Assembly (NCBI GenBank): GCA_001687465.1
Contig: LVLI01000336.1
Location: forward strand, 1-64,000
From: Halocafeteria seosinensis
Taxonomy: Eukaryota > Sar > Bigyra > Bicosoecida
Direction: 5' to 3'
Length of the DNA stretch: 64,000 bases
Shown: piece after piece, positions 2,223 to 51,490 of the stretch
Layout of the letters: each line of letters starts with the position of its first letter
Position numbering within the stretch: the stretch's first letter is position 1
Program-made: the position numbers and the translations under genes
The notes under the pieces: model-generated
The model's input: only the letters and a program-made list of their open reading frames with translations
The model's database searches: none
What the model was told of the DNA's origin: nothing

Positions 2223-2907
2223 TCACGATGATACCGTGGGGCCTCTACGGTTCTCGCGTTTCCACGTTTGGACAACGGGGCGTAGATCTTGAGTATCAGC
2301 AGGGATAGAGGTCAAAAAGTCCCGGAAAATCAACAATTCCCGGTCTTCACGGAGCTCACGAGGACTTGCATAGAACTCATTGCATACAATGCCATTTTCG
2401 GGTTGACCTGCCATGTACCCCGGGTTGTTATCTATGATGATGGTACGCTTTAAATCGCGCCCCAGTTTCCTCAAATCTTTGCCGTAGGGGAAATCGCCAC
2501 ACGAGAATCCAGAAACTCGCCATCGAATGTAATCCCGACTTTTATCTAGTCCATCCGCCACACCATTCACGTAGATGGGGTGTCCACTGCCCCACAATAC
2601 AATTTCAAACTTTTTACTAACTTCCCGCAAGAATTCATTTACGTGGGGACGAAACACAACCTGAAGCTGGCCGTCCAACAGGGAAACATCAGGCTTGACT
2701 TCCGTAAATCCCTGCAGCGATAGAAAGAAAAGAAGATTTCAAATCTGGGTAGACAAGTTGCCATTGCATTGCAAGATTCAATCAACATGAATAGCTTACC
2801 CCTGCATCTTCCGCATGGGCAAGAGTTTCATTAATATCTAGAACAAGTGTCCATTTATCCTTATCTTCAGGCCGTGGTGGAGGTAATGGTGTTTCTTGTC
2901 GAGACAT
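2223..2907 (-). CDS. FCP1/SCP-like (NIF) HAD phosphatase-fold protein with altered catalytic motif
   Basis: Two exons, 2907-2800 and 2711-2223, joined across an 88-nt GTAAGC...CTGCAG intron, give 198 residues. The fold follows the FCP1-homology pattern: motif I LVLDINETLAH (residues 21-31), the Thr/Ser-type segment FEIVLWGSG, then GRDLKRTIIIDNNP with the motif III-IV aspartate and a C-terminal block like that of SCP/Dullard enzymes (LLIFRDFLTSI). In this family DxDx(T/V) carries the nucleophile Asp and the general acid Asp two residues on. Here the second Asp is Asn (N26, codon 2830-2832), so the nucleophile is kept but the acid/base is lost. The product may be a weak or inactive phosphatase, or a binding protein as in TIM50, which also lost the motif. 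No signal peptide or TM is seen. It is small for FCP1 (no BRCT) and close to SCP core size. Divergent from the next gene. Confidence 0.75.
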
Positions 2908-3303
2908 GGCCAATCACAGTAAGAAGTGAAACTAATCGTATTCTCCACGTTGCCCCAGTTGGAGATACACACACACACACAAATGTGACAGATAGCCCAC
3001 CGGCCGTTGGAGATGGGAGCAAAATATCAATCCAATGAATTGTTGTACCCAAACTAACAATCACGTTCAGCGAGTTGCACTTGCACTTTTCCAAACTTCT
3101 TCGGCCGGCCGTTTGCGTGATCACTTCGATTATGTGATAGGATCCATCCACCAAGTGAAAAAAATAAGGGGTTTTCCATATCATTTTGTACCACATGTTG
3201 GTCCCTGCCAAACCCCCCGCTGGCCAGGCTACATATCCTCCATACTTCTGCATTGTTGGTTCTTAGCGTTCTTTGCGGTATACATTCACATTTATACAAT
3301 AGT
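2908..3303. promoter_or_regulatory. Divergent intergenic region with an (AC)7 microsatellite
   Basis: About 400 bp lie between two divergently oriented start codons (2907 minus, 3304 plus) and must hold both promoters. A short (AC)7 tract is at 2967-2980. Open frames here lack codon structure and family similarity. No clear TATA box was seen. Confidence 0.4.
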
Positions 3304-5781: not shown

Positions 5782-8700
5782 CTAGGTCTGCTCTACAAAA
5801 CCACGGCGCCCTGGGCCTATGTTTAGCGCAACCTCCTCTATGGCTGTTTTGCTTTTTCCGATTCCAGTGAAGCCATTGTCATCCACTGAAACGGTTAGTG
5901 TGTGATTCCCCGGAGGACAGTTACGAGAGGATTCACATGTGTATGCGAGTTCTTGAAGCGCATAGTTCACGTCCGCCTGACTCCCGAGAAACTTCATTCG
6001 ATTATTTTCTATACCATTCCCGTTCGAGAAATGAAGCCCCCGTACACTGAACACGGATACCAAGCCTTGTGTCACGTTTACGGAGACAGTAAGATAACCT
6101 CCAAGCCCGATACCGAACGGACTAGTAATCATAGCCTGCAGAACATCAGGGTCCTGGATTCCGAGACCGAATATCGTGAATGGCTCATCCACAAATCCAA
6201 CAATCGGAAGAGCCGAGCTCGTAATAACCGGAACTTCGTTGACTGGAGCAATATATACATCAATAGTGGTATTTGCTAGCCCTTGGCCACCAAAACGCGC
6301 TGCAGCGCTATTGTCGTTGACAGAGATAAAAATTTTATCGCGTTTGTGAACTCCAGTCAGCGAGATATATCTAATTATTCTCAAAGCGCTGTTAATTTCC
6401 TCCAATGGGCCGTGCAGCGTTACGGTGCTTCCAACTCCGGAAGCTGGGTCGTATTCCAAAGCAGCGACAAACAATGGCTGCAGATTACAAGCGGAACAGC
6501 TGAGGGAAACGTCGAATGTAGAGTCCTTAGCTGTGTCGACGTCTTCTATAAACACTGAACGAGCGACCAAATCCCTGTAGTCCGAAGGGGCACGAGGCGA
6601 GGCCGTGTCAGCGGTACGTTCCGCTACCGATTTCAATGTCCCCGAAAATAAGAAACGCTCGTTCAATCTTACTAGGCTAGCATACTGGTACACTGAGAGT
6701 GCAGAGCTTTCTATACTAAATTGACCGTCCGTATACTCAAAAGCTGCGGATGCCTCTCCGAGAGCGGTATCAAAGATGAACAAGGAATACGGGGCCATCG
6801 CGTTTCTCTTACTTCTTTCATTCTGTGCAGCAAAAACGAGGAGTGGATTTCCACCTTTTTCGCAAGTATTGACCAATGTCAGCATTGTAGGGAAGGAACT
6901 TATTGCCCCTTGAGCAATATCTGCTACCATGCGTGTGTTGGATTCAGTACCGTCCGTTCTCCACAGTTCGGTACCATGAATGCCGTCTTCAGCGGAGAAG
7001 TAGACAGCCGCAGAATCCATTTGACTGTCCAGCTCCTGAAAAAAACGCGGAACCGACGAAGGAGTTCCTGGGAAGATGTCTTTCACTAACGTTGCTATTG
7101 AACCATTCAGTGAATACAATTCTCTACCGGTTTCCTCCGAATGTCCTGAGAAGAACGATATGCCGAATAAGGGAGAGTATGTAAGTTGTTGCGGATCCCT
7201 CGCTACCGTATCTAGACGTCTTGCAGCAAGGTTTTCGTGTGCATTGGCATCATCCAGGCCGATTTCCCAGAGCACCCGCTGATCTTCGCAATTAGAAGCA
7301 GAAAATACGAGGCGGTTAAATGCTCGGTCATAGACTATGTCCTCGGGGTTCGAAGAGCGTCTTCCATGACACACGTCGGCAAGCAATTGAATACTGCCGC
7401 CTGCTTCGAGCCGCCAAAGCTCTCTACCTGTATATGGTGAGTCTGCAGCAAACACAAGGAACTCAGTGGACTCTTGAGTTACGACCAGCAGATGTTTAGG
7501 GTCTGAGGACTTTAAACCAGGGTTTAGATCTGTTTCCCTGTTGACATTTCGCTCTTCGTCCATCGACCATAGCTCACGCCCCGCTCGTAAATAGCAGGAG
7601 GCTTGAGCCTTCCGACAAGAGTCTTCCGTATCGAAACCGTTTCGCGTCTTACCTCTCACACAGACTGCACCCGCAAATTCCCGAGATGGGCGATCATCAT
7701 GCCTTATGTCAGCAATGGATACTGACGCGGCATCGATGTATGCCCCATTTTCTCTTGAATCACTAAATCTAAACTTCCTTCGGAACCTCCCTTTAAATTG
7801 GAACCCGCTCCAACCACATTGACCGAAATATATCGGTTTCTCATTGAGAGTTCTCTTTACGCTTTCTAGTATCAGAGGCCATTCCTCTGTAGATGCCCAG
7901 TGGAAATCTGCAGGACAGTCATAGTTCCTCAGTATGTCCCACTGATCCAATCTACTTGCGACGAATGCTACTTCGACTGAACTATCTGGGAAAACCGAGT
8001 CTGTAAATCTCTGGCCTTGACACTCATCATCACGCAGAACCCAACTCGTATCGATCCCATCCGCCGCAAAGTACAGTTTGCTACCCCACTGCGCTAAGTA
8101 CGCAGGCGATGAGCTACGTATACCAGGCATAATGTCTTCAATTCTCACGGTACCTGTCTCTGAATGCTCCCAAAGTTCAATGTCAGCCTCTGAATCCGTC
8201 ACATTGCCGGCAGCGAAGAAAACTGAGTTGTCGAATGACACGAGGAACCGAGGGATACTTTTAAGTCGTTCAATACCCAGTTGAGCGGTTTGCAGCAGCT
8301 GCCATTTCTCTGATGTTAACGAACGAATACCTTCTTCCAAAATTAGTTCATTGGCACGTGGACAAACGTATGATGATAGCAAGCCCCATATCTCAGGCGA
8401 AGCAGAAGCAGAGACTGCCGCCGAACTGGCTGTCCACCAAAACTGAGGTATCGTGACTGTTGCACCTTCTCGGGATTTAAAACTTGATGCACCATCAAAG
8501 TTGGCTGCTGTCAAGATCACGGGGTCATCGTTCACTTCAAGCACATTTATTGGTAACTCAACTGTGTGGAATTCGGGAACACCTTCCCCAGTATGGCCGC
8601 CGTCATTGATGGTGATCCTTACAAAATCGTTTCCTGAGAAGTTTGGAATGCTTCTGTAAGCTAAGCAGCTTAAGAGAATCTGCGTGTCTTCGAGAGTCGC

Positions 8701-11700
8701 TCGAAATGTTACCATACTATCCGTAACATGTTGCCCAAACGCAACATCAATGTTGAGAGTAGTGGTTATTTCTCTTCTGCTGATGCTTTCCAGTAACGCT
8801 TTTTGTGGGGGGCCTACCGTCCGGTTGTTTAGTTCCGCGAAGAGGAGAATACAATGGCTACATACAATGGTCGTTTGTAGAGCTTCTGGTCCGAGATCAT
8901 TGATGTCTACATCTCGGACCAATATTCCTTGTAAGAGTTGGATTTCGTCCTCGAGAACGATTAGCGTTTCCACTGACATGGGGATGATTGACAACTGGTC
9001 ACCAAACCAGTCGGCTGGATCGCCACCTGTGGCCAATACTTCCCCAGGAAGTGTTACCACCGGTGCATCGTTTATCGGATGCACAAAGACTAGATATGTG
9101 AAAGTGTCGCTGGTCTGTGGGCCTTCGCCAAAGTTCCCTAGGTCATCAACAGTAACGGTGACGGTATCGGGACCCGCGTCAATGCTATTCCAATTCAAGT
9201 TGGGGCGATAGTTCAGTAACGTCAGGACTGATTTTACTACCGCGTAGGGCATCTTAACCGTAACGTTTGCGCCCGAGATGGAAGACGAGGTTCGCTGCTG
9301 TCTACCGGCATTGAATGATTCTTGAGCAAAGACTTGTTCACGCTCCCCACCGAGTCCAAAAGTATCGCTCAATTGAACAACACCCGGTTCACTCCGTTGC
9401 TTGGTGACCGTAGAACCGTTGATAATCAATGCTTCTACGACTGTGTTGATGAATAACGTTCCATGTTCAGCAGTAATGGTCAGTAACACCGTCGAACCAC
9501 GCAAGTCTACGGTGGGATGGTGCTCACTGGAGTTGAGTTCAGGAATGGGTTCTAGGTCTTCATCGAAAAGGGTAAGCTGCGGTAGCAGCACTTGAGAGTC
9601 CTCGTCGCCAATAATCATACCATTGATGAGATCCGAAGTATCCAGAAGACTCAAGGTTATAGGATCGTTCAGGGGAATCAGCTCAACCTCTATCACTTTA
9701 TAGGCAAAGAGCATCGCCGCTGGCGTTGATTCGTCGTTAGCTGAAGTAACGGTTATCGTAACATTGTCCATGCCAAACATCCCGTCCATAGACATATATG
9801 AAAGCCCCTCCAATAAATACATTGCGTTTGGAACATCCACTTCGACATGTATCAGCCTGTCTAGGATTCCTGTTCCCCGCAGCAGCCGGAAAGAGCTGGA
9901 AGTGTGCAAAGACAAGAGCCCCTTGAAGGAAGAAATTACTACCTCAAACGTTGAACGAAACGTAGGTAGTCCACCACTTGCCCGAATCTCTAGACCGCAA
10001 AGTCTCAAATCCTCTCTTTCCTTTACATGATAGGATAAAATGACAAGGTTAGATGGGTATTGAGGCAGGCTCGCGTTTGCACACTCCCTAGCCTTGCTGA
10101 GAGATGAAATAAGTGTAGGGGTGATTGCTGTTTCCGGAACTATTTGAATCGGGAATGCCTCTGTGTCCGTCATGGATACATTGTGGCGGGCACCCCCGCT
10201 CATGCTTGCTCCTTTATCGTCTGCATGCAGTGACAGTATATCCAGAAATGAGCTATTTCGTCCGCCGGCAGTCATGGGTTGGTATTGAGTTCGTGAGATT
10301 TGCCTATTAAGGTCTTCTATGCTTCCACTGAATTCGATACTTTTCGACCAACTATGGGGAAAGGAGGAGTTTCCATAGCTTATTCCAGGACTCTTGGCAA
10401 CCCGTATCGTCCCTGTGTCAACTTCCATCGAAACAAATACCGGGTTCAAACCTGCATCGTCGTCAGAAAGAGTGATGCCCCGCACTTTCACAGTGGACCC
10501 CTGCGGAACTGTTAAAACATCGACTGCAAAGCTCCACCGCGGTGCAAGATTGACATCGATTACATTAATTGGTATAGCAGAACTAACGATCCCTTTGTCG
10601 TCTAGTATGCTACTCCGACGTATTTCAGTCTCAGGAGCTCCTGCTGGTGCAAACTTGGAGGATGTAAAACCAGAGTCGTCTGTTGTCACGTTTATCCATT
10701 GTATACCTGTGGTATGCACATCTGGAATGTATACTATACCCGAGAGAGCTTGATTCATGGCTTCGATAGTCCCTACGGCTTCGATGAACGAAGTACGAAA
10801 GAAATGGTCCCTGGCGTAGTACTCCCCGAGGCTATTAGATACTCTTCGCCACGGCTCTCTTCTTCGACCAGACCCAACACCTAACAAATTAACCTCTGCA
10901 GGATTTGACATAAAATTCAGCTCTCTGCGCGTTAGACTGGATGTGGAGATGTCGTCACCTATAGACTCATCATTGTTCAGTGGCTGAAGCACTTCGCTAG
11001 AAGTAGCATTCTTCAGCGGGAAGTTTTTCTCGCGAGGAAATGTTAGGCCTTCAATGGTAGGAAAAAGTAACACACCGGTGCTGGCATTGAGAGTCACCGT
11101 AATGAGGCTTGAAGAAACGTCATTGACGTCGATATCGTCAATGGATAATTCCGTTATTGTCATAGATCCGTTTTTCTCTACACAGATTCCCTCAGTTCCG
11201 ATCAAAATCGTGGGATTGTCATTTACAGGGATTACCACGATCTGTAAGACCGCATGGATAATCAAGGGTCCACTTGCGGCGGACCCTCCAAGCAACATGT
11301 CACCTTCTTCAAAGCGATCCCCCCCTCCTAAGCCACTCCTTCCATGGTCGTTAGCACTTACTTCGATCTTATCGACGCCCATGTTGAGGAAGTTGGAATC
11401 ACTAGGGGGAGTGTACACCAACGATCTCAATACCAAATTGACATCTGGAAGTGGACCCACAAGAGTAACATTACCTGGAAATGCATGCTTCCACGCTGTA
11501 ACAGACACACTGCTTAGACTCTTCTGGAAGGTTACAGCCCCATGCAGTATTGCCACATTAACTGTGAGCACATTGAGGCTCTTGTTAGCAACAAGCGAAA
11601 GCTTTTCATTTCTCGGCAAATCCAAGTCGTCGAAGGCATCATCTAAGTCTACATCACTTATCACAATACCCAAAATCTCACTTGCAGTGTCTTCTGGTAC

Positions 11701-14700
11701 ATACCGCACCATATTTCCTGAGGATATCTCAGGTGGGTCGTTGACAGGTAGAACCGTGATTGGGAGAACGCGAATATCTCGCAGCGGATAAAGAACCGAT
11801 TGTCTCCACCCCAAAGACACATAACCTATCATAAGAATATCGAGAAGTTTAGGTTTGGATAGGACTGAGGAGAGTAACTCTATTTCTGCCTCTGATGCTA
11901 CTTCTGCAACTTCATCAAAAAATATTCGCTGAAGAGACGCCACGGAATAGTTTAGTCCTTTATCCACAAACCGTTCGTCGAAATGCAGACGGTCAATAAG
12001 CTGAAGCACATTCTTTTTCAGAGGACGCGGCAATGCCATCGAAAAAGTACTGTCGTCGCTGGAGAATTTCGGGTTTGCGGATCCCAACCTCTCTAGAAAC
12101 TCCGGTAACTCAGGATACTCAATTCTTGAAGAGCTGTTGGAGCCTGAAGAAGAATCGCCTATAGGACGAGTCCCTGTATTACCCAGGTCATCTACTTGAA
12201 ACACAATCTGGTCGTCCCCGCTATAATGCAAAGGAGGTCTGTAGATCAGTTGACTCAAGGCAAAATTTACTATCGCAAGCGATCCGCGCACCTTCAGCAC
12301 CTTATCAAGAATTCCATCGCCCAGTTCCATCATGGAAAACAGGGGCAACTCAATCCCTTCAAACCAGTTAGCCCCTAGTCCAACATATCCATGCTTCACT
12401 TCTACGGTCAGCTCTATCATATTTAGAGCATGCAGGTCGCCAGTTTCATTCCCGTTATCTCTAGGAGAGACCTTCGCTCCAGTGTAGTGGGGTGGACTTG
12501 CTCTCCAGTTGTCAGCGGCATCAACATCGCGCACACTTATGCCTCTAATAATGGTGACCTCATCTTCCCTCACCTTGAACGGTTGAGTTGAGTTAACCTG
12601 GTAAGACAAACGATCACCTGTCATACAGTCAATAATGCCAGTCTCCCCAGGCAATGTTAGCACTGGAGGGTCATTCACTGGAGCTACTTCGATCAGAATG
12701 AAGTCCAATGACGGATTTGCAAGTACGTTGCTTGAAGTGCTATTTATACCCGGAGGTTCAATGCTCTCCGGCGTTTGATGCACATCCCTGGGAAGGGCTG
12801 TTCTCAGTGAAAGTAACGTTTCCATTAGAGGACTTCCAAAAAACTGTCTAACAAACGCACTTGCTTTTGCTTCTTTCGTTACATTTTCCGCGCTGAAGTC
12901 CTCCAGAATCTCTTCTTCAGCCTCTATGGACCCATTTACGAGTGCTTCAATATACACCCCTATCAGTGGTTGGAGTTCGTTGTCACTCATCACAAGAAGG
13001 TACTCGTAACCAGTCGAGTTGACGAGATAGTTGTCATTCTGTGGCGGGTGGTAGACGATTTGATCCAACACTGAGTTGACAGCCGAGATTGTGCCGTTCA
13101 GTACGAAAAACCTGTCGTAGAGACCTGTTCCATATACGAGATTAACTTCCCCAACTAGTTTTTTGCTGACCGACACAAAACCGCGAAGGCACAGGACAGA
13201 GGCGTTTATGACAGGCTCCGGTACTGTACCAGCAATAAGCTGAGGGTCCAGAACTGATATCCCAGTTATCAAAGCTGAAGTATCTTCCAAGACTGATAAT
13301 ACTGTCGCCGGAACTTCGACGCGAGGAGCATCAAATGTTGGAAGTACATCAATGGCTATTACTTTCGTAGTAAGTTTAGCCAACTTCTCGGTGCCAACGT
13401 TTCCATTATCAGAAACAGTTACATTCACAAGCGCCCGCCCGAAGAATTGGATATTTCCACGGAAGGAGAGGGTAGGGAGAGCTTTGTTCAAACTGTGGAT
13501 TGAACCACGAAGAAGCAGCCTACTTGCACCAGGCGCAGAGGCAACATCCCGGTAGCCACTCTGGAAACTTTCACTCAGATCTTCCGTCAGGGCCTGTTGC
13601 GAAAACTGGAAGAAGTCGGTGGACCCCTGACTACTTACCAATAAGCCCTCCATTGAGGTTATTTGGAGGCTACCAACTTGACAAGAAATCTCCACGGTCA
13701 GTTGAAGGAAGGAATCCTCGGGACATATATCGGGATCTACCAGGAAGAGATCTTCGATTTGGTGCTGCTCATTTTCGCCGGCTGTTCGTGGAGTCCGTAC
13801 TCGGATTTCTGGTGCATTATTCACTGGCTCTATGTTCACAGCAATCGAGCCGAAAGAAGTACCAGTAGAATTCCTGTCTCCACCAACAGACCGAAGGAAC
13901 TTACGGAAAGCTGCGGAGGTGGGTAGGCGGTCTACTTCAGGATTAAGCAAGTCGCTGCCGGTTTGCCCCTTATCGTCTAAGAAAAAGAATATGTCATCCC
14001 TCCCATAATAGAACTGTGGAGCTTTGTACTGAATTCGTTTTAGAAACTTGTTTAGGCGTTGTATCGACCCTTTTAAGGTAAGTGCACTTCGGCACCCCCT
14101 GGATGTCCTGGGAGATAGACAATGGCGTTCGGTCTCAAAAGGGCAGCTTTCTCCCTCTCCTGCGACTGAGACGCTTCCTAGGTTAGCTTGCACAAACAAG
14201 TCTAATGGCTGTGCGCCACTGTCTTGGTCACTGACTGATATGTTTCCAAGTGCTGTGGTGAAATCTTCAAATACGGTGCGAGACAAACCGCCTAAGAATT
14301 CAATCTCTGGCTTCGTATTTAGCTGCACTGAATACAAGCTTACTCGCGTAGACGCATTTCTGCTGAACGTTTGGAGCTGTTCCAGGACTACTGTCGAGGA
14401 CGATAGTACAGTTGAGTAAAGAGGATCATCGGTTGCACCTGTGTATCCGAAGTCTGATAGTTGGATAGAGGCGATGCCTACGCCGGACCACCTTGGTTGA
14501 GGACGATAAACTAGAGTCGCCAGGGCATGCAGAACATTTTTAGGTGCACCATACACGAAAACCGAGTCGGGACCTTCATCTGCTCCAATGAGATGTGGCA
14601 TAGATAATGTCCGCCGACAGACCCTCCCAGTTGTTACACCACTACAAGAACCCACCTCACTCGAGAAAAGCGGAAAACGGTCATTCGTAGGTGCTTCCAA

Positions 14701-17700
14701 GTCCGTCCCTAAGTTACCTGTGTCGTCCTCTGCATTCCAGGCAAAGCGTCCCTTCAAAGTATCGGAAAGCCTCGTGACCTCAATCCTTGCGCCTTCGTGC
14801 TGTGGAGTTAAGAGGGTCGCATCAGGGGTAAGAATCCGTGAAGCGAGCTTATATTCTTCCAGGAATACAATATACCAGGTATGTGCACCGACAGCGTCTT
14901 CTGGTTGCCGAAATACCATAAGAGTTCCGATGTCAAGTGCTTCCGAACGAGCGCCAGCGAGTGCCGTTAGAATAAGCATCATGTCCTGCGGCTCTATAGA
15001 AGACGACAGAGGAGGTGTAACATCCTGGCCAAAACCTAGCGTGAATGTTCCACTGACTGGTTGAGGTGCTGCAACGCTCTCTGATATTCCGATTGCATTT
15101 TTGCCTTTCAACCTCGAGCCATCTACGGTTAGCAAGGGTAACCAATATGGGGCATCTGCAAAACGTATCGTATAGACCTGTTGTGACATGTTCGCCTCTT
15201 TTGTAGCTGATATCTTAATGGCTTGGAGCTGGCGGATGACATAAGGGTTGCGAATTGTCGATATCAGCTCTTTTAGAAGCAATCCAACGTGGTACTCCAG
15301 GGACTCCTCTTCTGGTACATACTGGCTTGCCGTGGAAATGTTCCATTCAAGGGGTTCGCTTTTCGTTACTATGGATCCTATGGAGAAACCAACGCTAAAC
15401 TGTCCCCTCAAGTTTGCGTGCGGTGTGTCTGATGGGTTGAAATCTGCCCTCAGTAATATCGTTTGGACTGTCGGGAACATTCGCTTTTTAGTGGTAACTG
15501 CATCCACACGGGGGGATCCGAACCCCTCCTGGTTCATCGTTGCCTCGATACCAACACCATCCCCAGTAAGGTCACTGCCCTCGGGGACAAGCAGAGGAAT
15601 GCCAGTAAACGGGGCGATAAATGTGATAAGCCATGTCCTGATATCATATCCATTCCGCATCTCTGGGGTATTAGCTACAACATGAACGGCTTCAATCGAA
15701 CTCAGAAGCTCTAACGCGTGCTTGAGCTCCTTCGATGAAGCATCTGGGGCCAACGCGACTGTCACGTCCTGGTCGAATGACAAGTTGAAACTACCCCCGA
15801 TTCTACTTCTGTTTTTCACTACAGAAGTTTCATACCCAGGTATCACGTCCGATTGATTCCACTGGAGGTCAGCAAATTCAAGTAATGGAATATCACAGGA
15901 ATTGGTCATACGTACGTTCCACTTCCACCCAAACTTCTTTTCATCTAAAGGTAGAATCGATTCCATAGTTACCCACAACATTAGACCAGGGTATAGTTTC
16001 TGTAAGCCCTCAATAGACTGAAGAAATGTTGTTCCACCATCTCCTGGAGACACTGTATACTCGTTAGCATGCGCGGCGAACGATACCTTCGATGACTTAA
16101 AGGGCCGATTACTGTCTTTGTTCTGCAATCTGAAACTCCCTTGAAGACTGGAAAACCGGCCCTGGCAAACGTGTATAGAATCGTTACATGGAATAAAAAC
16201 CGAAAACGACTGCTCCTCGTCCACAATAGGAGCGTAGATGGTGACATTCTGCACCGAAAACTTTGATACATGATGCATCCTAAGCTGCATCCCAAGAGTA
16301 TCATAAGCAGAACGATCAATATCTGGTATCGCTGGATTAATCATCTTCCCGAGTTGCATTACTTCGCCCTGGTATGCCACGCTGAGGAATTCCCCGGGAT
16401 ATATTTCACATTTACCAAAATGATGTTCCAACTCGTCCCCGCAACGCTGCTCAACGATAGTGGAGTTAACTTTATCAAGGGAGGGAGATGCCAAACCATT
16501 GAATGAAGGCGACAGATTTGTTGGAAGGACATCAATAATGGTACTGGAATAGACCATTTCCTGGTGCTGGTCGCATGAAATTTGGACTGCAAATACCTGC
16601 GGGCCATACTGTCCTGGCTCTGGAAAATATAACAGAGAAGAGAGGGTCAATTCCAGGTCCAGAGCTGTGGAAGCCATCGAATCCAAATGTATACAAGCGT
16701 CTTGACCGATCAAGCTACAATTTGTCTTCTCCGAGCTTCTGGCAAAGTGGTTGATCATAACCCCCTTTGTCACCTCTGCTTCTACGAGGCAAGTGCCCGA
16801 ATTGGGTGGGGAAAAGACAATGTGTTTGCCAATTTCTGATGTTTTTCCTTCCGTCGCTAAGAGTCTTTCGGGAATCCAAACTGCCATCGGTTCCTCAGCA
16901 CGAATTATGGAGAGGGTGGTCTCCTCAACGGAACTCTGTAGGTTCGTTCCATCTTGCCAGGCACTGACGGCAAGTGTGACCACTTGATCACATTCTTGGA
17001 AAGTTAGTTCTGCATCACTCAGAAATCTATTGAGCGCCGAAACTGTTCCCATGAGACAAAAACAATTGGAAGATTCGCAGGATGCAACTTTTAGCAGCAA
17101 GCACCCGTCGAACACTTGGACATCGGGAAGATGCAGTTCAAAGCTATCACCGCCTATGCCGTCAATTTTCACGACGTATTCATCACTTGCAGAGATTGGA
17201 GCCATGACAGTCGGTCCCCACGCATTCAAAGGAAATGCTTCCCCGCAACGTATGATGTGAGATCGGTTGCCTGTGCGGGAAACGCTAGGCCGACTATCCT
17301 GACGCAGTACCTTTGCAATAACGTGCCTCTCGCTTATAATGACACTTCGTTTGGTTTCTCCGCTTAAGTCGTCTAAGTCATCGTTTGACAACTGGAACTC
17401 CAACCGGAGGTATCTTTTGGGTGTCGTAGTTACCAAGGAGATTTCACTTTGTTGAAGAATTTCCTCGATACGAGACTGGTTGCCGCATAGTGTCCACTTT
17501 GTATCCGATATCTTCTTCCACGGATTTTGAGTCTCTGCAACTGCGTAGGCATCCAAACTACTAGTTCGGATCATGACGCTCGAGTCCATAGACACAGTGA
17601 GACAATATAACAAGGAAGAATCCACAGCATCTCCTTTGCAGAGATGAATTCCTACTGAAGTCTCCTTGTCACTGTCGGCAAGCGGCAAAGGCGACGTTTC

Positions 17701-20700
17701 CGCTTCCCAATTCACCTGCTTGAACAGCGATATGTCGTCGGTGGTGGACATTATCCAATCGACATAACAAAGCCTCACTAACGACGGTCGATCGAAGACG
17801 AACTCTTCAGCCAAAGAATCGGACAACGTCGTAGACGGGGACTGACATGTGTTTGGGAGGGATGCAGTCGTCCAATTTGCGGTTATGGCTAGAGTTAGAG
17901 CTCTGACGCCATGTGAGGGAACCACTTCAACGCACTGGAGAGCTTTCTGGGCAAACACAGCGTCGCCAACCAACCAATGCTCAGCGCGTGGCTCATCGAA
18001 TCGACTCAGGGGAATGGAAAACTTCATCCCTTCCGCGCAGTGAAGCCTGACAATCCCGTTTTGCGCGAAGATGGCTAGAGATACTTTACTACTTTCCAGT
18101 GCAGTAGAGTTCGATGGAGTAAAAACCTGATTATCGCTTGATCGACCAACCATCCGCAACTCTGGGTTAAAGTCTTTTAGGAAAATGCTTCTTGAAGAAA
18201 CAGTTTCTCTAAAACTTACACCCCAGCTTAGATCTAGACTCCAGTTCACGCGAGGTAAACGAAAGAAGGAGAGCTGTGTTCGCACCGAATCCACCTCGAG
18301 GATGATTCGAGCCCACTGTAGATATGGACTCAGCACGAATGTATGCTGCTGCAGAAGATGGTTCAAAACTTCTACTGTTCCTGAGTGACGGAGCAATGAG
18401 TTTGACCTCGTAGAATTGCGGACCGAAGGACTGCCAAGGGAACAATTAAAGCAGGTCAGTCGCATATCAAACACACGAGATTGAAAACAGCTCAGGGTTT
18501 CAATATGAGGCATGTCAATATGGGTTGCGTCGCAGACTGTTTGGTTATCTTCCGCTTGAGAAAAATGAACCCGTTTCGGGGCGTCGAGGCTTTCAATGCT
18601 GATTGTGGTTTCATTTGTCACTTCTAAATCTCCTCTCCGTAGACAAATGGTGGCGATGATTTCTGACACATTCCCGCATGCAATTAAAAGCGGTTCCGCT
18701 CGCACAACCAATGACCCTACTACAGTATTGAGCATATCAAGCGCACCCTTCAGGAAGAGCCGGGATGCTACTCTACCATCAAACATATGTAAAGAAGAAA
18801 CGTTCCTACCAGATTCGTTAGTGCCATGCACGACCACTCTGGGGAAGTGCAAATGATATTCAGCCTCTGGTAGCAGTTGGAAGAATGCCGAGGTGGTAGC
18901 TATCTCAAGAGAATATTCGGGCGAGTCAATTCCATCTGAAAACCAGGAATCATCTGTAAGATTCACATTGAAACGATCGCCAGCTTGCTGGGCAAAAATA
19001 CCCAGCTGAGCCGTAAAATTGTAGTTCAGTAAGACTTCCAGAGCACGTCCTAGATATTCACGCGATCTCCAGCATCCGAGCGTCCCAGTGCATGCAAACG
19101 CTTGTACTCTCACCCTATACTCTCTTGTCTTGCCAGTAACTGATGCGGAGAAGTAGATAGCAGGTATTGCGAGGGTTGAACATTGGGAATCAGTCGCACG
19201 TGGCTTCGGCCGCAGGAGGTGGACTCCAGAAGAACAAGTAACGTGCTCGAAGCCACCGAATTCAGCAATGCTAACGAGACCATTCAACGGTGTAACCTCT
19301 TGACAAACACAGCTGCTTGCAGTTAGACCTTCAACCCGCAGTGTTTGTTTGTGGGATGGAGAAAAAACAACTTCGTCGTTTCCCATCAAAGTTTTGTTCA
19401 GTTGATCGCCATCTACCGTGCTGGCCGTTACGTGGTCAAGCGAAGCAACAAAAGTTGGAGCCCCGTTTGTTGAGTTATCCTTCACCAAAAATACAGTGCA
19501 GTTCTTTGGTTGTGATCCATCATCCGTGGCCACACATAGTCGCACTGACGTTCTAGACTCCTTAGCAGACTTTACTAGCATGCTATAACATATTCCAGGG
19601 CCCAGTAGATCATTCAGCACAGCTGGTGTCAAGATGACCGTGGTGGAATCTGATACTCTTGCCATACCAGATTCATCAATAGCCGACGATAAATGCGTAA
19701 TAAACCCCAATTCTCGTCCACACCCTGGTTCTCTCTCAAATACATTGAACGTAGCTTCGGCATCGCCATCCAGCATATCTATCGTTAAAGAAATGGAAGC
19801 GCGATCCTTCTCCTTGCGGGTGGGAGACCTAGACCGAACAGAAAATCCGGTAACTCTGACGCCTTCTTTTAGATTCCCCTCTATAGTCGATCCGACTCCC
19901 GTGAAGACAGGTGTGTATCCCAAGTCTTCCCTGAGAACGGAGATGTTCTCGATAGCCGTCTCGTTAGCATCGGATATATTCACTTGGACATACGACTTGA
20001 TCACATGATCATCCAGGGTAATGTCGATTTTATTGAGACAATCATTCAATGTTGTGACATCGCCTTCGTAGAAGGACGGTTCTAAAAGTGTTGCACGGCA
20101 CTTGGGCAATGCCGCTACAACCCCTGAGGTATGGATTTGCAGTCTGAGCAACCCAGAGCTTTCTGTTGAAACACTGGCGCTTGTACTGGTCACCAAAGCG
20201 TGTGCAGATACTGTCACCACCCTTTCACTGTGAATCTGGATACGATGATATCTAGGCTGTACCTGAACTCGAATATGCTTCTCGGTCTCTAACACACCTC
20301 CTGAACCAGTGAAACCGTTATCAGAAACGTGAATCACAAGATCCACAGCCCCGCTAAACTGTGGATCAGGGACCCAAATCACAGAGCCCAACTTAGCGTT
20401 AAGTAGTGCGATTGGCGTGTTGAGGTGAATAACACTTCTGTTTTCTCCCTCGTTCCCTTCAAATCTTCCGTGATTTCCGATGATTGTCACGCTAATTCGA
20501 TTGCTTACGGAGAGTGCAGCATCAAAGTCGTCAATTTCGTAGTCATCGAAACGCAAAAAACTTCCTGGTTCCAGGACTACTAAGCTCGGTCCGGAGATCT
20601 TTGGTTCGCTATTCTTTGCCTTTACTCGGAAACACAACTCTGATGAAGTAACTGCAACCATGTCAGTGTCAACACACCTGACGGTAGAGTCTATCTGAGC

Positions 20701-23700
20701 TAGGCTTTCCAAATACGTTCCACCCCATGTGTTCTTTGCGCACAGGAGAGTTTGGAAACAATCCAGGCTAGCATTGTGGAGGTTGTTGATATACAAACCA
20801 GTATCAAGTATAGACTCGAGCGAGCTTGTATTTCCGGTTATAACCCAGTATCTTACGTTGCCCTGTTCCATCGTAATCGCATCCTCCTCAGGAAACAAGA
20901 GAGCTGCTTCCTTCGTGAGGCCTATATGCAATTCCAGTGTTGTTTGTCGCGGATTGTGCAATCGGGAATCGACAGATGCAACATCATCAAGCTCCGCGCT
21001 TACAGCCAACTGCGGGAAGAATCTGGAGAAGGTTCTCTCTAATGGCTCAAAATCGCCAGCCAGAGTGACGGAAAAATCCCCTGTCATCTTAGGTAAAACA
21101 AGCAGATTAATCGAGTTTGACAGGAGCTTGGAGTCGCCGTCTTGTATATTGTGTGCGGTCACTACAACTTGATCGGCCAAAGCTCCGGCTTGTTCTTTCT
21201 GCCATACGCTGCATTCTCCAATACACTCCATCCTGCTTATCCCTCCTAAAAAGTTTCTTTGCTCATGTGAGACGATAGTAATTGTCCACTGGCCTCTAGA
21301 CACTCCGTTTCGCTGCGCAACAACGTGAACCATGTGCAAGCTCCAAAATTTCTCCAGCTCCTCTTTCATCTCGTCGGCTCCGACGGTGCACGGCAAAGTA
21401 GCTGTAGTCTCTCCGAAGAGCTCCAATTGGAAGGGTATACTGGTGGAAATACATGCAATGTCCACTAGTGTCGGAAACAAGGCAGCCTTCCGCCCATTGT
21501 CGTCGACAGAGTGAAAACTGACGTGTTCGACCTCTCCTGTAACCGTTGTAAACGCCAGCCGAAATGTGTAAAGCCTCGGGGACTCCGCACATTGGATTGA
21601 CGCTTCTGTTAAGTTCCATGATGAAAATGCAGAAGTTGCGAGCTCTATTTCTGAGTTCAGGGTTTTCAGTGCGGTGCTGTTGCGACACAAGAGGGGAAGA
21701 TCCAAATTGAAGACCACCTGAGACGTTCCTTCTTGAGCTATCGTCAACAACGTAATATTCGAAGAGGTTTCTAAAGGAGCGACCCAGGAAAAAAGCTCAT
21801 CAACGCAGCATCGGCTCTTTACTGAAAATACCGAATGTTCCACATTCGTATCACTGAATGAGACAATGGAATGCCAGTTCGGTGGAGCCAAATAGCGTAG
21901 ATTCCTCAATAGAGTATTGATTGTATTGAGCGGGCCGGCTATAGGCAGGGTTCGTGTCGGCTGGCGTTCATCCACTTGAACGGTGCCCAGAACACATCGC
22001 ACCGTAACGTTCCAGTAGTTCAAGTGCTCCGGTTTAGTATCCGAATACAGCGATACCATATCCAGAATGTTATCCAATGGAAAAGGGTCAACAACGGCAG
22101 TAGACACTAATGGCGAACTTTCCACCGTCGTTTCGTTTCCACCACGTAGCACCTGATATTGTATTGAATAGGGGAATCCTTTGTCCTTGATGATTAACGC
22201 AGCGACCTTTGGTCGCCAATGCATATCAGTTTGTGCAGTGGCTCCTGCACTTAGATCTCCTATCGTAATGTTGACGTCGATCCCAGGATAGCGTTCAACT
22301 TTTCCTACAGCTGGCAAGTAGTACAACAAGCGAGCCGTGGGAAAGCTTGCCTCTGTCAAATACAGTCTAACAGCATGAGAAGTTGACCAGCCGGGGGGGA
22401 TGGAAAGACTAGGAGGAGCACCAGCGCTGGTAGTGGCTATGCTACTGACCCGAAATATATATCCGTAGTTCGAGTCGTCGTTAATAGTATACCTCTCAAC
22501 TCGAAGGGTACATGACCTCGAGCTGGCAAATACTCTCCCCTCGTCACCAATGGTAATGCGGGAATGGCTGTTGAAAGCCGATGCTAACCTCACAGCAGTC
22601 GATGATGGGTGCACTGTACTCTCAGCTCCTGTGTTGCAATCATACGTAGGAATACGCTCTGAGGGTTTCCACTTTCCTGGGCGGATGACTCTACTACTCC
22701 AGGCGGAAACATCGAAACCTGACACATGGAGCTCCATAATTGCAGGCTCGTCCGCAAGTAAGGCTTCCAAATCATCTTTATAGCTAACTTCCACAGACGT
22801 AAAATGCTGCAACAACTGAACACGGTAGTTATTCAAGGTATCCTCAATGTTACCAAGGTCGAAAGTACTTGTCGGAAAGAAAACTCTCCAAACAGCAGCC
22901 CGTAACTCCATCCACCTAGGCAAATTGTGCTCGGCATTCCAACACATTCTTGCATCGGCTGGAGTACTGCATATCTTCTCGTTTTCGATCACGAACTTCG
23001 TTACAATCGTATCTCCAAGCGGTAAGCATCCATCCTTCATCAGGCAATCATGTGACAGCTCGTTGAACTTGTCGAGCTTCAGCCTGACATCATTCGCCGA
23101 GTCTGATGGTCTGAGTTTGAACAGATGCCGTTCGTGGTGGTTTTGAGCGAGTGTAGCACCGACATTAACCGTGTTGTCTCTTGAAGCGGTCGACAATGTG
23201 CACTCCCCACTTTCTCCAATGCTTTCAAGGATTGACCGTTGGTTGGCCGAGCTAGTGATGGTAAACACTAACCTTTCTGGCGTGGCGGAAACTACTAACT
23301 CTGTGTGTTTTAGACTCTCAGTCATCCATGCCTTGATTTCCTCTGTGGTTGTTCCATTCCTAATTGTGAGTGTATTGTTAGAGTTCCGTAAGCGAAATAG
23401 TGTACAATCAGAATGGTGATGATATAACTGCAGCTCGTACAGCCGGCAGCTCGTGCAATTCAGAAAGGCAATCTCCAGCAGCCGAGACGAGAGTGTTTCC
23501 ATGGGTAACTGCTCCCTCTGCGTGACGGAGATGTTAGAGCACGAAAAAGAGGACAGTTCGAACGGCACAACATTGGATTTAGGCTGGTGGATTTCAAGCT
23601 CCTGCGTTTTCCGAACAGAGCTTTGCATTTCACAAGATGAGCCATCGGAACCATTACGAACCATCAGCGTCGTCGATTCAGGGATGCTTAATTGGAGAGT

Positions 23701-26700
23701 CCATACTCCTGTTCCTGTGGTAGTATTGAGCCAACGGAAGTGGGCGGAGCCGAACTTGTGCCTAGGCCCTAATTTTTCTAACGACCGAGCCATAGACCAA
23801 AGTGTGTACGATGTGAGCTCAACTTCTGCGGGAAATACGAGCGTAGCCGATCCGTGGTCACTCTCTATTCCCACAAGACATTGAGCTGCAATGTCGCCTC
23901 GGGTACGATGCACGGAAACAGTGACTGTTGAGTATGGGCGACATATGGAGAAACCAGACGCTGAATTCGTTTGAGAGAGCGATACATTGGAATCAAACGA
24001 CAACATTTTAAGTTTTTGGTACATATCTGCAGCACTCCCATTCCATCCTATTCTCAATGAGTCTACGAGTAAACCGACATCATCTCCTTCTTCATCGTCA
24101 GCTATGCAGTTTACCCTTTCAACGTGTATACCGTTCAATCGACGATTCAGCCTGCTCACGGCCATCTCGTAGGTATCATTTACCTCTCCGAACGCTATCG
24201 TGCTTTGAGATTCGGATAGAATGATTCCAGATTGGACAGTGAAATGAGCTGAGATGGCTTCGGTTGGTTTGTTGGTCTGGCCAAAGTCGATAACCGGCCA
24301 ATTCAACACTGGTGAAGTATTCGTTGCATTTGCCCAACTGACTGTAAAAGTATTCACGTCATATGGTTTAAGTAGTAACCGAATAAGTAGCGAATCACCC
24401 AGAGCCTCTGTTGAATCCCCAGAGAACGCGTTATCGCTAACACTGACGTTCAAATAGCTTGAGTTATCATAATGTTCCGGAAAGTAAAACATGAAGTTCG
24501 GCCAGCTAAGCATCCCATTAAGTGAGGTAATAGTGCCATTTATGCAAAGATCATTACCATGAAAGTATCCGTCTTTTGTAACCGGTTCTTCAAACATCCA
24601 AATACCTGAAACTAGTAAACGATCTAGAGCAACAGCAAAATGTACTTCGGCAGTTGTTCCAAAACATAGTGTCCAGTGCTCGAGATACTGTTGTTCTACA
24701 TCTACGTCATCAACCTGGATGCCAACAAGACTCGCCGCTTGAGCCTCCCCTACTAGAATGTCTTCAGGACCAGAGAGTAGCGGACGATCGTTGATCCATC
24801 GAATTTCGAGCAGAATCTGCACGTTCGAACAATGCTGCTCTAAGTCGTGTTGCCACTCTCTTTGCATCGAACAACCTCTAACGTGTACTTTAGGGGGAGC
24901 AGCTGTCGTTGCCGGGGTCCAACGCCTACCGCCTGAGTCGTGAAACCAGACGAAGTTGTCGTCCGGAACTATCCAAATATTCCTTAGTAAATCATTCAGT
25001 TCAGCTTCACGACTTTCACAAAGGACGATACTGCCATTAGTATGGCATAACGACTGGTTTTTAGGTTGTATAATTGTAGCTCCGGTCGGGTGTATTGCTA
25101 GTCGCCACCATTGATCGCCACTTACAGAATTCACTCTCACAATTCCAAATGGTGCAGCTTCGTCTTCTTCCAAGGAAAAGACATTCTGCTCCCCAAGTGA
25201 CCTAAGGCTTTCAGAAGATTCCATATCCACATAAAGCTCGCTCTTTCTCTTATTAGAAGCAACAGAGCGAATAGTTAGCGAAGGAAGCTGACGAATATCG
25301 CCGGAATCGCTTGCCAACCACCGGTAAATCATCGAGATGGTACCTTCCCTTTTTCCGCTCTCAATCGCCATTTTCAACGTCGACAAAGATGCGCTAACGT
25401 TGCTGAAAGTTCCAAAATATTCCATGACTGGGAACGAAATTTTGGTATCTGAAGCCCTGGTACCGGCTTCACACTCTCTCAGGAAGACGATGTTCGAGCT
25501 CCTAATTTCAACGGCCACAGGATGTTCAAGTAGAATAGGAGATGAAGCCTCAGGCAAGTGCAAGACCGGTCCTTCGAAAGACTCGTGTTCAGGTATCTCT
25601 AGGAACCTACGTGACGAGCCACGAATTAAAATTTCAGGAGTGACGAATTCAGGAGTAACAAAAATTGTCAATCGGTGGTGCGCTATAACTTTGCCACCCG
25701 ACAGGACTATAATGTCAACGTTATCCACCTCCGTTTCAACACGATAGTGTGCGTAACGCAAGCGTTGAAACCAACTTGATATCTCAGTCCCAGTTCCTTG
25801 GAAGACACCTTTCCTAGTCATGGTTAGTTGGCCACCAGGCTCATTGTCAGAAAACGTACTCCCTATTTCTCCTTTGGCGACAGCCCATTCAACAGTGAAC
25901 GTAGACGTGTACAGTGGGAATGTAACGTTAAGAGACAGTTCCTGGGGTATTTCGGACCCTTGAACTGTAGCTGTATCTGGAGCAAAGGTGATGTTGGTGT
26001 CCTGGGCTATGAACCTCCAGTGTACATCGATGGATGTTGATGCTGTAGCAACTGTAACACCAATAGTAGCACTCGCCTGAAGGGTGTCCGTCTTGTAAAA
26101 TGAGCACCCACAAATGACTGTACTTAAGAGTGCCGTATCCATCACTAATGACACATTCGTCCAACGGGAGTCGCTTGGTATTCTACTTCCTTCGTGAAGG
26201 GTACTGTGTTGAATAGTAACGCCTTGTAGTTTGGTACACCCAACGCTGGCATTGGTGACAGCAAAGGTCAAGACAGCAAGTGTCCGAATGGTTGGTCTGC
26301 GAACTGCAAGTTCCGAAATAGAACACGCGGAAATAGATGTCGATCCAGCAAAACCACTGTCGTCGATGCGGCTGAGGGATACTGACGAGTTAATTTGACC
26401 CCTTAGATGAAAGGAGACCATTTGTGTCGCACGCCCCAGCCACAGGGGTCTACTTTGCGGCATAATTGTTATCCAGTGATACTCCAAGGAGTTTTGGAAC
26501 GGGTTATTGATTAACCAATCCCTTCTTGAGTTGCAAGGAATATTACTGAGTTCGCTGACATATTGCTTCAGCTCATTAACTCTATGTTCTACACTGGGGC
26601 GGAAAAACAGCTGTGGGAGCTGGGAGATCACCACTGACAAGACGTCTGTTTCTTGGTGGGTTGGCAGTACACGGAATCCCTCTTTGAAAAAGATGTTGGC

Positions 26701-29700
26701 GCTGCTCGAGTTCAAAAGAATATTTACCTGGTGCAAATCGCAGCCACGAGGGCCTGAGAAGACAAATCCTAGGCTTTTGTCCGTCATTTCTACTTCCATC
26801 GACATCGTCTTGAGAGTGACCAAAAATGCTTTGTCTTTATCAAGCGAATCGAATTCTAAAAATCCGCTTTCCTGGGTTATTACATCCCACAGTCTGGCCG
26901 CTCCCTTCAAGGAGAAAGCAACGAGACCATGGTTACAGTAAATGCGCTGGTTCTTTGCTACCGACGTGCTGCTGAAATTAGCGTATTGTGCCATAAAGGA
27001 CAACATTGTTTCGTTTCGGGAGCAATCTGGACTGACGTAAAAGGAACGTAGTAGACGATTAACCGAGTTTGCCGCTGCGCCTACCGAGATTGCAGTTTCA
27101 CAATCGTTGTTCCTTTGCATTGCGCCACCCCAAAGACAGCCCCCTGCAGCTCGAATATGTACATTCAATGCCACAAAGTTCGAAGATGCATTAATGACAA
27201 CGCTATTGAGCTGCAAAGGCTCGTTGTGGTCTACCCATTGTTCTTCGGGAAGAACTATCTGTATTTCTTCGAAGTTAGGCTGGACTTCCCTCAAGGCATA
27301 GTCACAGTTACTTGCTAACTTTCCGAAGTGGCATAGTCCCAATTCAACATGGTAGAAGTGCTGTAACAGGGGGAGCGAAAATTGCGTCTGCTGAAGTACT
27401 TCTTCGCACTCGAACTGGTTGCAGAAAAACGTCAAGTGTTGCTGTGAGTTAATAGTCCCCGAGACATTAGTAACAAATACTCCAGAGGTAGCAAAAAGGA
27501 CGAATTGCTCTCGTTGATTCATCGGTATTATCCCTATAACACCCTCAGTGGACAACTGGTGTCTTTCGCCGTCCCCCAACGTTAGTGGCAGTATCGGTTG
27601 AGCATCTACGGACACCGTCGCCATCACTTCTATATCGATGTTTACCCTGTATTTGTTCTCTAGGGCCTTCTCCGCATAGTAGACCGAGATCTCTACAACT
27701 TTAGGAAATGACCCATTGTGCCAGTCGTCTGCTTGGAAACAGGGGAAGACTTCTGCAATTTGCCGTAGCTTCAGCACTGCTGCAGAGTCATTTAGATAAG
27801 TCTCCGAGCATACAAGGGAGGAAAGTCGGTTAAAATGGAAATTGGTCTGACTGACAACAGTCAGGACAATGACCGAGTCTAGAAGCGATTCGTGATCCGG
27901 TTTCAGCGAGAGCCCTTCCAGTCCTAATGTTGCCGTTTGCTGTAGTTTTAGTTGAAGTGTCAACAAATTCACGGGATGATTGGAGCATTCCTGACTTCCA
28001 CACAGACGTGACAAAGTCACAGGATACAGTGTAGTTGTAGAGGCGGAAAGAAAAAATCCATAATGCTCCACCTCAGGACGCATTGAAAAATTTAGAGATG
28101 ATCTCGAAATCACCTGCACAGTCTCCGAATGCTGATGGAGTACCAGACGCATCTCACTGAGCATGCCATTAACGTCCTCCAGAACTCCAGCCACTGTGTA
28201 GGCTTCAGAGAATGGAAAGAGTAACAGGGAGGTCGTCTCTCTGTCACTCCGTTTTGCAACCGTTTCGTATCTTTCTTTAGGCAACACTATCGAGGCACGA
28301 GTCACCGCCAGTGTGATTTCCACATACGTTTTCGTTGCCTCGGGCGCATACTGAAGTATGTCCAGGAAAAATTCACGGTCTGTAGCGGTAACAACTGGAA
28401 GACGCCGTGCACTCCAGTAGTCCTCCGCAACCAACAGTGTCTCGTTGAGGCGCAGCTTCGCGGCTATTGGACGGGCCGAGGGAAAAGAGACGCGCATAGG
28501 GAATTCCTTCGTCAGAACAGTCTGTATTGAGTTACCGCTCATCAACACTTTCAAAGAGGAGACTCCAGACCATTCAGAAGATGGTAGAATTGCTATCTTA
28601 GCCAAAGTGTCGTTAACAAATGCTAGATGTCCGGAGACAGAAATAGAGGGATTAAGTCCCTCGCTGCATAGCATTCCGGGAAATTGACAAGATTCGTGTT
28701 TACTCTCACGGCTTTTGTCTTCCATCGAAACGATCGTCGGAAAGCGTTCACTAATTCCCAAGATGCCGATAAACCCGCCAAGAGAGACCAGGACTTCGAA
28801 ACTCTCTTGTTCTCGCTTCGTGAGTGCGAGAGGATGGAGCTCAATATAACTCCCCAGGACAAAAGTAGGCTGTGTTTGGTTTAAGATAATTTCCCCTTGG
28901 GGGAAATTGCCCAACTTAAAGTCGACTAGCGGCTGCATCGGTTCCATTTCGAGGACCATAGACTGCCGATCAAGCAAGATGCCGTTGTCCGATCTCAGCT
29001 CAAACAGAATTTGTGGTACGGCAAAGCGAACACGCGGTTCATGTGGTTGGTAACTTAAATTTTGAAACGCCAAGTTGAGTTCTGAGCAGGGGCCGAAGAG
29101 CGTCAATGTCCCGAAATCTGATTTACTTCTTTTCACCCAATATGGCAGCACTGCGACGCGTGTTTCACCCGACGTTGCCGTTGCACTTACTTCGTAGCTT
29201 GTTTGGAATTTAGGCAGCAAATCGATGTTGCATGTTTCCTCCGAAATTTTTATCGGCGGTAGTGGAAGTTCCTCCACTCCCACTCTTAATTTATGAACTG
29301 CCAAGATGAGGCGTGGAGATGTCTCCATGGACGGGAAATACACTGAAAAAACTCGGTCCCCTTCTGCTGGTTCACATCTGTTTCGTTCGATCTCAACCGA
29401 CAAACTGAAGACGCATGACATAGACTCGTTCGTAACTAGCGACGATGCTTCAAACGATGATAAAGCATTCTTTACTGCGTCGAGAGAGCCGCTGCACCCC
29501 GTTGCAGTGCAACTCAGATCCGGCGAAGGGGATTGTAGGACAGAGACTGTGATTTCATTACACGAGCTCGAAATCGCAAACGCGGCCATATCGTTGTCTC
29601 TAAAGCGTCCGTGATCGTCTACCCGGGCTATAATCGAAACAGTTCCATTAACGGCGGTATAACGATTCCTATCTATGGACACGAGCAGATGTGGCTTATC

Positions 29701-30584
29701 TGCCCTTGTCGTGACGCCGAAAGCGGTGTGTCGGGAACCGCGGCAACCAACTCGAGAAGTCTCAAACTGAAGTTGAGCGCTACTGTTCCGGAAAGACGAT
29801 GGATGATACTGCAGCTCCCGAAGATGCCTAGAGAGAATACTGATACTCCCAAGTAGTGTCCCATTGAGAAAAAAGTTGTGACCAAGTGCCGTCGTCAAGT
29901 TCGTGCTGTGCTCATTCGGTATCAACGAGATGCTATATTGCTCGTCGGACGTTGAAATCTCCTCCAGGCTTGCCACGAGATAGGCAGGGGCTTCGCAAGT
30001 CGCTGGTGTTGCACTAAAAACTACCAACCGAGGGATAAAGCATGAGTCGACACGAATAGTTATTTCTGTAGAATCCGTCAAGTTGTTCCGCAAAGTATCC
30101 AACGTTACCCACAAAGTGACTGGAGTTATCAAGATGTCTGTGGGTGGTACAAACGTAACTTCTTCTATCTGTGTCGTGAGTTGAGCGGTATCTCCTATTA
30201 ACTTGAAATCTTGAGAGGCATCTTGATTCGACTGTAGAAGGTGACCAGCCGAGACTTGGAGTCTTAATAGCGCTGGGTGCCTCTTTACGAAGTCGGCTAT
30301 CGTTCTTGGAGGCTCTCGTAGCGAAAGCAACTCTGCATTTGCACGTATACACTCTTACCACAGTTCCTGTGGTGGTGCCATCGTCAATATTACATACCGT
30401 TGATCTTAAGTGGCGTGCTAGGAGTTGCAAGTTGCACACTACTATTAAAAACATGTAATCGGGGTTGAATCGGTTCCTCTGCCACTCCTGGAGTGCTTCG
30501 TGATACCAACACGAAGACAATATGGAAGATGAGAAACAACACTCCATGCTCCACATTGACGCCCCTTCGAAGAAGGAAATCCAT
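5782..30584 (-). CDS. Giant secreted cadherin-like/ELWxxDGT repeat protein, ~8,245 aa
   Basis: Exon 1 (30584-30398) encodes a short basic N terminus and a hydrophobic signal segment (LFLIFHIVFVLV). A 65-nt GTATGT...TGCAG intron leads into a single 24,551-nt exon (30332-5782) with no stop. The protein is built from repeated beta-sandwich units of roughly 100-150 residues. Each tends to end in an 'I...L..L.Y.P' line, then a D-x-G-x-x-G calcium-type turn (SDNGNVG, DDLGNTG, DDKGQTG, NDHGRSG, DDNGFTG), then a 'VNDPP'-like linker. Copies are clear in the C-terminal third and more eroded toward the N terminus. N-x-S/T sequons are abundant. Near residues 7420-7890 an ELWxxDGT-type propeller is embedded. 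There is no C-terminal TM or GPI-like tail, so a released or matrix-bound adhesin/coat protein is inferred. Cadherin-like units are known in bacterial and protist surface adhesins; orthology is not claimed. The lack of introns contrasts with neighbouring genes. Confidence 0.85.
6850..8260 (-). other. ELWxxDGT-type propeller segment, with an inserted cysteine-containing domain, inside the giant protein
   Basis: On the minus strand the giant ORF shows ELWEHSETG, GRELWSMDEE, GRELWRLEAGG, GRELYSLNG and GTELWRTDGT at intervals. Each is followed by a D/N-x-x-x-G and SS-x-P line (DIMPGIRSSSP, DLNPGLKSSDP, DIFPGTPSSVP, DIAQGAISSFP), which is the blade signature of ELWxxDGT repeats. Between the first and second blades, about 7640-7990, is an insert with YDCPADFHWAS, GQCGWSGFQF and RKFRFSDS that I do not recognise as part of the propeller. 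Cadherin-like units resume on both sides. Confidence 0.7.
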
Positions 30585-51486: not shown

Positions 51487-51490
51487 TTAA

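Follow-up and report, generated by a model that had tools for sequence, protein, structure and literature searches.

The question raised by this locus is what is encoded by a single stop-free reading frame of more than eight thousand codons in a eukaryotic genome, and where such a gene could have come from. The locus lies on contig LVLI01000336.1 of the Halocafeteria seosinensis assembly GCA_001687465.1, in a stretch of 64,000 nucleotides that was analysed as a whole and is called the window below. The gene occupies the minus strand of positions 5782..30584, and we refer to its predicted product as the giant. Its best explanation, to which we assign as a whole a probability of roughly 0.6, is that it is a divergent, fast-evolving, probably single-copy member of an old family of giant secreted eukaryotic proteins, forming an extracellular rod with a ligand-binding head that would reside in the cell coat or matrix or be stored in vesicles.

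Gene model and domain architecture

The open-reading-frame scan of the window revealed on the minus strand (30354..5785) a frame that runs for 8,190 codons without a stop, which at 47% GC is not attributable to chance. The long frame taken alone requires a start further upstream, because its first in-frame methionine is only codon 256. The predicted two-exon model (Table 1), with the exons joined in frame and zero internal stops, corresponds to a protein of 8,245 amino acids (aa), with a mass of 906.6 kDa and an isoelectric point of 4.98. The splice at 30397-30333 is predicted from the sequence rather than from transcripts; on this model, one giant modular protein of ~8,245 residues with a 24.5-kb uninterrupted exon, whose sole detected intron follows the signal peptide, is found as the initial annotation had described it.

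The same annotation regarded the protein as secreted, densely glycosylated and devoid of a membrane anchor. The N-terminus is indeed signal-like, with the top hydropathy window of the whole chain at residues 9-27 (2.12; 19-residue windows, best 15 examined). N-glycosylation sequons are likewise dense, with 115 observed versus 64.4 +/- 7.2 expected from 200 shuffles, and the claimed D-x-G-x-x-G turns are represented by six D[DN]xGxxG motifs. The claim concerning the anchor stands in part: by hydropathy alone an anchor is likely absent, but two doubtful internal windows exceed the usual value of 1.6, one near residue 6414 (1.93, at the end of a repeat) and the other near residue 1456 (1.70, outside the detected repeats). 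These two windows slightly reduce our confidence in the overall explanation given above. Altogether, a giant secreted protein is supported, and an extracellular role of the kind proposed is plausible.

Two classes of repeats were sought with models derived from the family itself, so that the counts lean toward the family, with shuffled or reversed versions of the giant as the only controls. The model of the cadherin-like ('a') repeats, grown from one repeat of the homologue P0001 and applied with a threshold of independent E-value (i-E) <= 0.01, identified 20 to 23 copies in the giant, the number varying with the set searched and several copies lying near the threshold. It gave zero matches in 20 shuffles and one reversal of the giant (best i-E 0.03), which confirms the cadherin-like repeats noticed initially, albeit in a diverged form. 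The second class ('b'), about 87 residues long, is present in four copies; its model found none in the 21 shuffled or reversed controls at i-E <= 0.05, and comparison of the 'b' repeat with Pfam yielded chance-level matches only. Much of the N-terminal part (residues about 63-4907) fits neither model, and three of its nine 'a' matches have an i-E of only 0.004-0.009.

The ELWxxDGT beta-propeller close to the C-terminus was identified by TIGR04534 (149 bits, E 2.8e-44, curated cut-off 65 bits); in its structure model 130 of the 634 residues fall below 50 in the predicted local distance difference test (pLDDT). Many structural neighbours of this model are peptidases or glycosidases, which could mean that the propeller has an enzymatic function and that the giant is a secreted enzyme. 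We consider this very improbable, as those neighbours match the propeller fold only (6-17% identity), such peptidases have their catalytic domain outside the propeller, and the profile searches found no catalytic family in the protein.

The propeller harbours an inserted four-cysteine domain, in which the cysteines may form disulphides. Its alignment exhibits 20 invariant columns in 12 sequences and its structure is predicted confidently. As modelled, it appears weakly C-type-lectin-like or link-like, the solved structures of these kinds (LYVE-1, Ly49, mannose receptor) showing a weak likeness with 2-14% identity among the matches listed. Comparison of the insert with Pfam gave chance-level matches only and no C-type-lectin or link family, and comparison with PDB sequences was fruitless. 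To all appearances the insert is a conserved extracellular domain of a new kind.

Table 1. Predicted features of the giant gene and other features of the window (residue numbers refer to the predicted 8,245-aa protein).
Feature	Position	Strand	Remarks
Exon 1	30398..30584	minus	residues 1-62 plus one base; ATG at 30584
Signal-peptide-like segment, residues 1-35	about 30480-30584	minus	hydrophobic core VLFLIFHIVFVLV; cleavage site by eye
Predicted intron	30333..30397	minus	GT-AG, 65 bp; sequence-based
Exon 2	5782..30332	minus	24.5 kb unbroken; TAG stop at 5782-5784
N-terminal part, residues about 63-4907	15799..30332	minus	nine 'a' repeats (167-4539) and one 'b' repeat (3029-3095)
Three 'b' repeats, residues 4908-5249	14773..15798	minus	4908-4996, 5039-5148, 5156-5249
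12 'a' repeats, residues 5285-7375	8395..14667	minus	twelfth weak and partial, i-E 0.006
ELWxxDGT beta-propeller, residues about 7390-7962	6634..8352	minus	probably eight blades
Inserted four-cysteine domain, residues 7486-7623	7651..8064	minus	within the propeller
Two C-terminal 'a' repeats, residues 7969-8234	5818..6615	minus	11 further residues precede the stop
Frame with Pfam bVLRF1	2-2047	minus	release-factor-like domain, 126 bits
MyTH4-FERM myosin	41318-47377	plus	~2,019 aa, single frame
5S rRNA gene	51367-51487	plus	97.7 bits; between protein-coding frames

The family of giants and the origin of the gene

A first homologue search, with the C-terminal 2,991 residues as the query, found 23 proteins (labelled here with P numbers), and a second search, directed at proteins of about 1,400-4,500 aa, added one further member only, P0024 from EukProt; the searches were restricted to at most 100 words and a length band, and further members may well exist. 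The insert is present in 11 of the 23 homologues and absent from the other 12, which are bacterial in type by their names or domains (P0021, for instance, is named Scytonema). Two insert-bearing members are named, Nothophytophthora sp. BBJ28_00006860 (P0006, 5,473 aa) and Saprolegnia diclina SDRG_06940 (P0010, 6,567 aa), and nine of the 11 are called eukaryotic by their layout and insert, not by database records. Within its C-terminal region, the giant aligns with P0001, P0002, P0005, P0006, P0007, P0008 and P0013 over 1,249-1,798 columns, and with P0009, P0010, P0011 and P0020 over 524-1,010 columns. Of the 13 members scanned for 'b' repeats, the giant included, 12 have them, the exception being the shorter protein P0024; the 12 bacterial-type proteins have none.

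The common layout consists of diverged 'a' repeats, a 'b' block, often 12 'a' repeats, the propeller with its insert, and usually two last repeats; the giant displays all of these, with one weak copy among its 12 'a' repeats. Between the last 'b' repeat and the first insert, exactly 12 'a' repeats are found in six of 12 proteins (the giant, P0001, P0005, P0008, P0009 and P0011), and the others have 14 (P0006), 11 (P0007), 10 (P0013), 8 (P0002 and P0020) or 3 (P0010). In the tree of the propeller and insert region (15 aligned rows), 8 of the 12 inner branches are unresolved, and the giant forms the longest branch (3.57), with no supported placement. The clade of P0007, P0009, P0011 and P0020 is fully supported (100/100). 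The two oomycete copies of this region pair across species and not within them; the support is moderate (92/93 and 83/87) and suggests that the duplication preceded the split of the two oomycetes.

Some members have features of their own. A receiver-like (Response_reg) insertion follows the propeller in P0007 (4117-4238), P0011 (6804-6923), P0009 (6550-6639) and P0020 (near 5362-5416); the Pfam scores of 27.8 bits (P0007) and 25 bits (P0009) are below the cut-off of 30.2, and the P0007 piece used as a query retrieved P0011 (i-E 8e-8), P0009 (0.0015) and, weakly, P0020 (0.036). The usual aspartate is missing, by eye, from the P0009 domain. P0009 also carries a fibronectin type II domain (PF00040, precomputed annotation) near residue 466, as located by eye. 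P0002 contains two fully identical copies of a 227-residue stretch, starting at residues 4634 and 5376; whereas the other repeats diverged long ago, this exact duplicate reflects either a recent duplication or an assembly error.

To explain the layout of the gene, the initial annotation had offered recent tandem expansion, a retroposed origin, or the acquisition of a bacterial-type giant adhesin followed by its fusion to a signal-peptide exon. The single very long exon speaks for the first two, but the repeat copies within the giant are only 18.4% identical on average (maximum 32.7%, 200 pairs), and a search of the gene for tandem or direct DNA repeats found none. Nor did the assembly (30.6 Mb, 605 contigs) contain a second copy of the C-terminal 1,040 codons or of the preceding 1,958 (2,998 of 8,190, with ~5,300 N-terminal codons outside this search), and the gene is probably single-copy. 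Moreover, the relative P0009 (7,021 aa) must be nearly uninterrupted too, because its contig is 21,676 bp long. We therefore reject both scenarios, which on this evidence are hardly credible.

The genome encodes one other protein of interest here, a 1,208-aa frame on contig C282 (L029 4055-7678, minus strand) with an ELWxxDGT-type stretch that scores 40.4 bits, under the cut-off of 65. It has C-terminal leucine-rich-like repeats (by eye and by weak NCBIfam matches) and no cysteine insert; it is distinct from the giant and is no second copy of it.

Several observations favour the bacterial scenario. The giant matches both TIGR04534 and, distantly, the tandem-95 type (NF012211, 31.8 and 16.5 bits for two halves against a cut-off of 90), and both repeat types are chiefly bacterial. 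More than half of the first-search homologues (12 of 23) are bacterial in type, and the 'a' model matches 8 of these 12, so that the cadherin-like repeat type is common to them as well; the position of the only intron found, directly after the signal peptide, would also suit a fusion. Nevertheless, the insert and the 'b' class are confined to the eukaryotic-type members of the set, and the layout recurs in eukaryotic-type giants, of which five predicted proteins (P0002, P0006, P0010, P0013 and P0020) have, by eye, a signal-like N-terminus in the same protein. In GC content at third codon positions, the four quarters of the giant's gene (0.454-0.473) differ little from three neighbouring genes (0.457-0.513). 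Scans for the insert pattern gave 7 matches in prokaryotic genomes and 4 in viral contigs, none of them a relative, which is weak evidence since they used one peptide pattern that the giant's own copy fails to match. Altogether, recent bacterial transfer is unlikely, and a recent adhesin joined to a signal-peptide exon, which we reject, would have only a very slight chance of being correct. The ELWxxDGT repeat and, more generally, the tandem-95 type of repeat are bacterial in character; the propeller may have been borrowed from bacteria long ago, and any transfer must date far back. Bacterial giant adhesins of the type-1-secreted kind are defined by secretion and retention modules at their termini; the N-terminus of the giant is signal-peptide-like.

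Exon length and neighbouring genes

The initial annotation contrasted the giant with neighbours interrupted by introns every few hundred bases. The exceptional status of the giant holds, while the picture of the neighbours is right only in part: the myosin of the window is a single frame extending over 2,020 codons, and there are four more stop-free frames, of 682, 559, 548 and 538 codons (no Pfam family matched the last two). Twenty pieces of other contigs, 10 kb each (200 kb in all), contain 33 stop-free frames that reach 300 aa; of these, 16 also reach 500 and 2 reach 1,000. Long exons are thus normal in the host genome, and that of the giant is still far outlying, being 4.8 times the longest stop-free frame of the 200-kb sample (1,709 aa).

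The relatives of the myosin were considered as the best 120 of 7,985 scored. The closest are two proteins at 59% identity; among named organisms, Cafeteria roenbergensis has the best match, with 51% identity over 99%. The matches listed also include the stramenopiles Triparma, Hondaea and Chrysophaeum, and records under Durusdinium and Batrachochytrium (42-44% over 56-57%). The myosin thus points to a stramenopile host, probably one of the Bigyra. Several full-length relatives must be nearly intronless too, because their contigs span only 6.4-6.7 kb. The product of the bVLRF1 frame is perhaps a Vms1/ANKZF1-type protein.

Proposed function and comparison with known systems

We propose that the 907-kDa chain would enter the secretory pathway by means of its signal peptide, and that the dozens of cadherin-like and second-class repeats, with their many sequons, may form a long glycosylated rod. 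Near the C-terminus, the propeller with the four-cysteine lectin-like domain in one blade could serve as a ligand-binding head, capped by the two last repeats. Having no evident anchor, the protein might be held non-covalently in the cell coat or matrix, or be stored in vesicles and then secreted, and its head could bind a glycan or glycoprotein present on prey, on some other surface or in the coat of the cell itself. In this picture, computation supports the gene model, the membership of the family, the layout, the propeller and the insert, and lends weak support to the lectin-like fold; splicing, the rod shape, glycosylation, disulphides, location and ligand binding are inferred.

The main alternative is that the giant is not an adhesin but a structural part of a secreted or displayed assembly, such as a flagellar hair, a cyst or scale coat or a vesicle store, in which the repeats would polymerise or pack and the head would be an assembly contact. 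The lack of an evident membrane anchor agrees with it, and the host and both named relatives are stramenopiles, a group with tubular flagellar hairs. There is also a precedent in PnLpv, a vesicle glycoprotein of >400 kDa described from Phytophthora zoospores (PMC3869178). On the other side, no sequence link to hair or vesicle proteins was found, though no dedicated comparison was made (PnLpv included), and the conserved head would resemble a binding site more than a packing contact. We regard this alternative as somewhat unlikely, and prefer the rod with a ligand-binding head.

More tentatively, we speculate that stramenopiles, and perhaps other protists, possess an early-inherited giant with a composite lectin head, in which a separately evolved C-type-lectin-like domain has been grafted into a blade of an eight-bladed ELWxxDGT propeller. 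This would amount to an extracellular system for recognition or matrix that is so far undescribed, retained in distant lineages as a single huge exon, with a decayed extracellular receiver-like domain in one subgroup. The family is apparently undescribed, as no description was found in the open-access literature searched under the themes of ELWxxDGT, giant oomycete proteins, mastigonemes, lectins and nonagonal cadherins. Gene finders and domain libraries easily overlook the giant extracellular proteins of protists, as illustrated by this 8,245-aa example, in which no Pfam model exceeds its cut-off over the whole chain. The conserved head provides a sequence handle on the family, whose known range covers a Bigyra-like host and no fewer than two oomycetes, and makes it a testable candidate for their cell coat or adhesion.

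Among known systems, true cadherins have long arrays of beta-repeats, as does the giant, and they have been reported from the stramenopile Pythium ultimum (PMC2926784). The giant, in contrast, lacks the calcium motifs LDRE and DxNDNxP (0 each, with DxND found twice), and no Pfam cadherin model scored above its cut-off in it, the best being the bacterial model Cadherin_4 (15 of 25.1 bits), so we reject this assignment. The nonagonal cadherins of Stramenopiles, reportedly described by Fletcher et al. in 2016 as having nine membrane passes, share cadherin-type repeats with the giant; they too were rejected, since the hydropathy of the giant reveals a signal peptide and the two doubtful windows above 1.6 instead of nine passes. 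They are also named in PMC7409359. The bacterial ELWxxDGT/tandem-95 proteins (TIGR04534, NF012211) have the propeller repeat and the cadherin-like repeat type in common with the giant, while the 12 bacterial-type proteins possess neither the inserted cysteine domain nor the 'b' repeats. The closest parallel is found in the oomycete giants P0006 and P0010, which resemble the giant in the insert, the propeller, the 'b' repeats, a similar layout and signal-like N-termini (by eye). With 24-29% identity over long matches, they differ from it in having two insert domains each instead of one, and P0010 has 3 'a' repeats before its first insert compared to the 12 of the giant.
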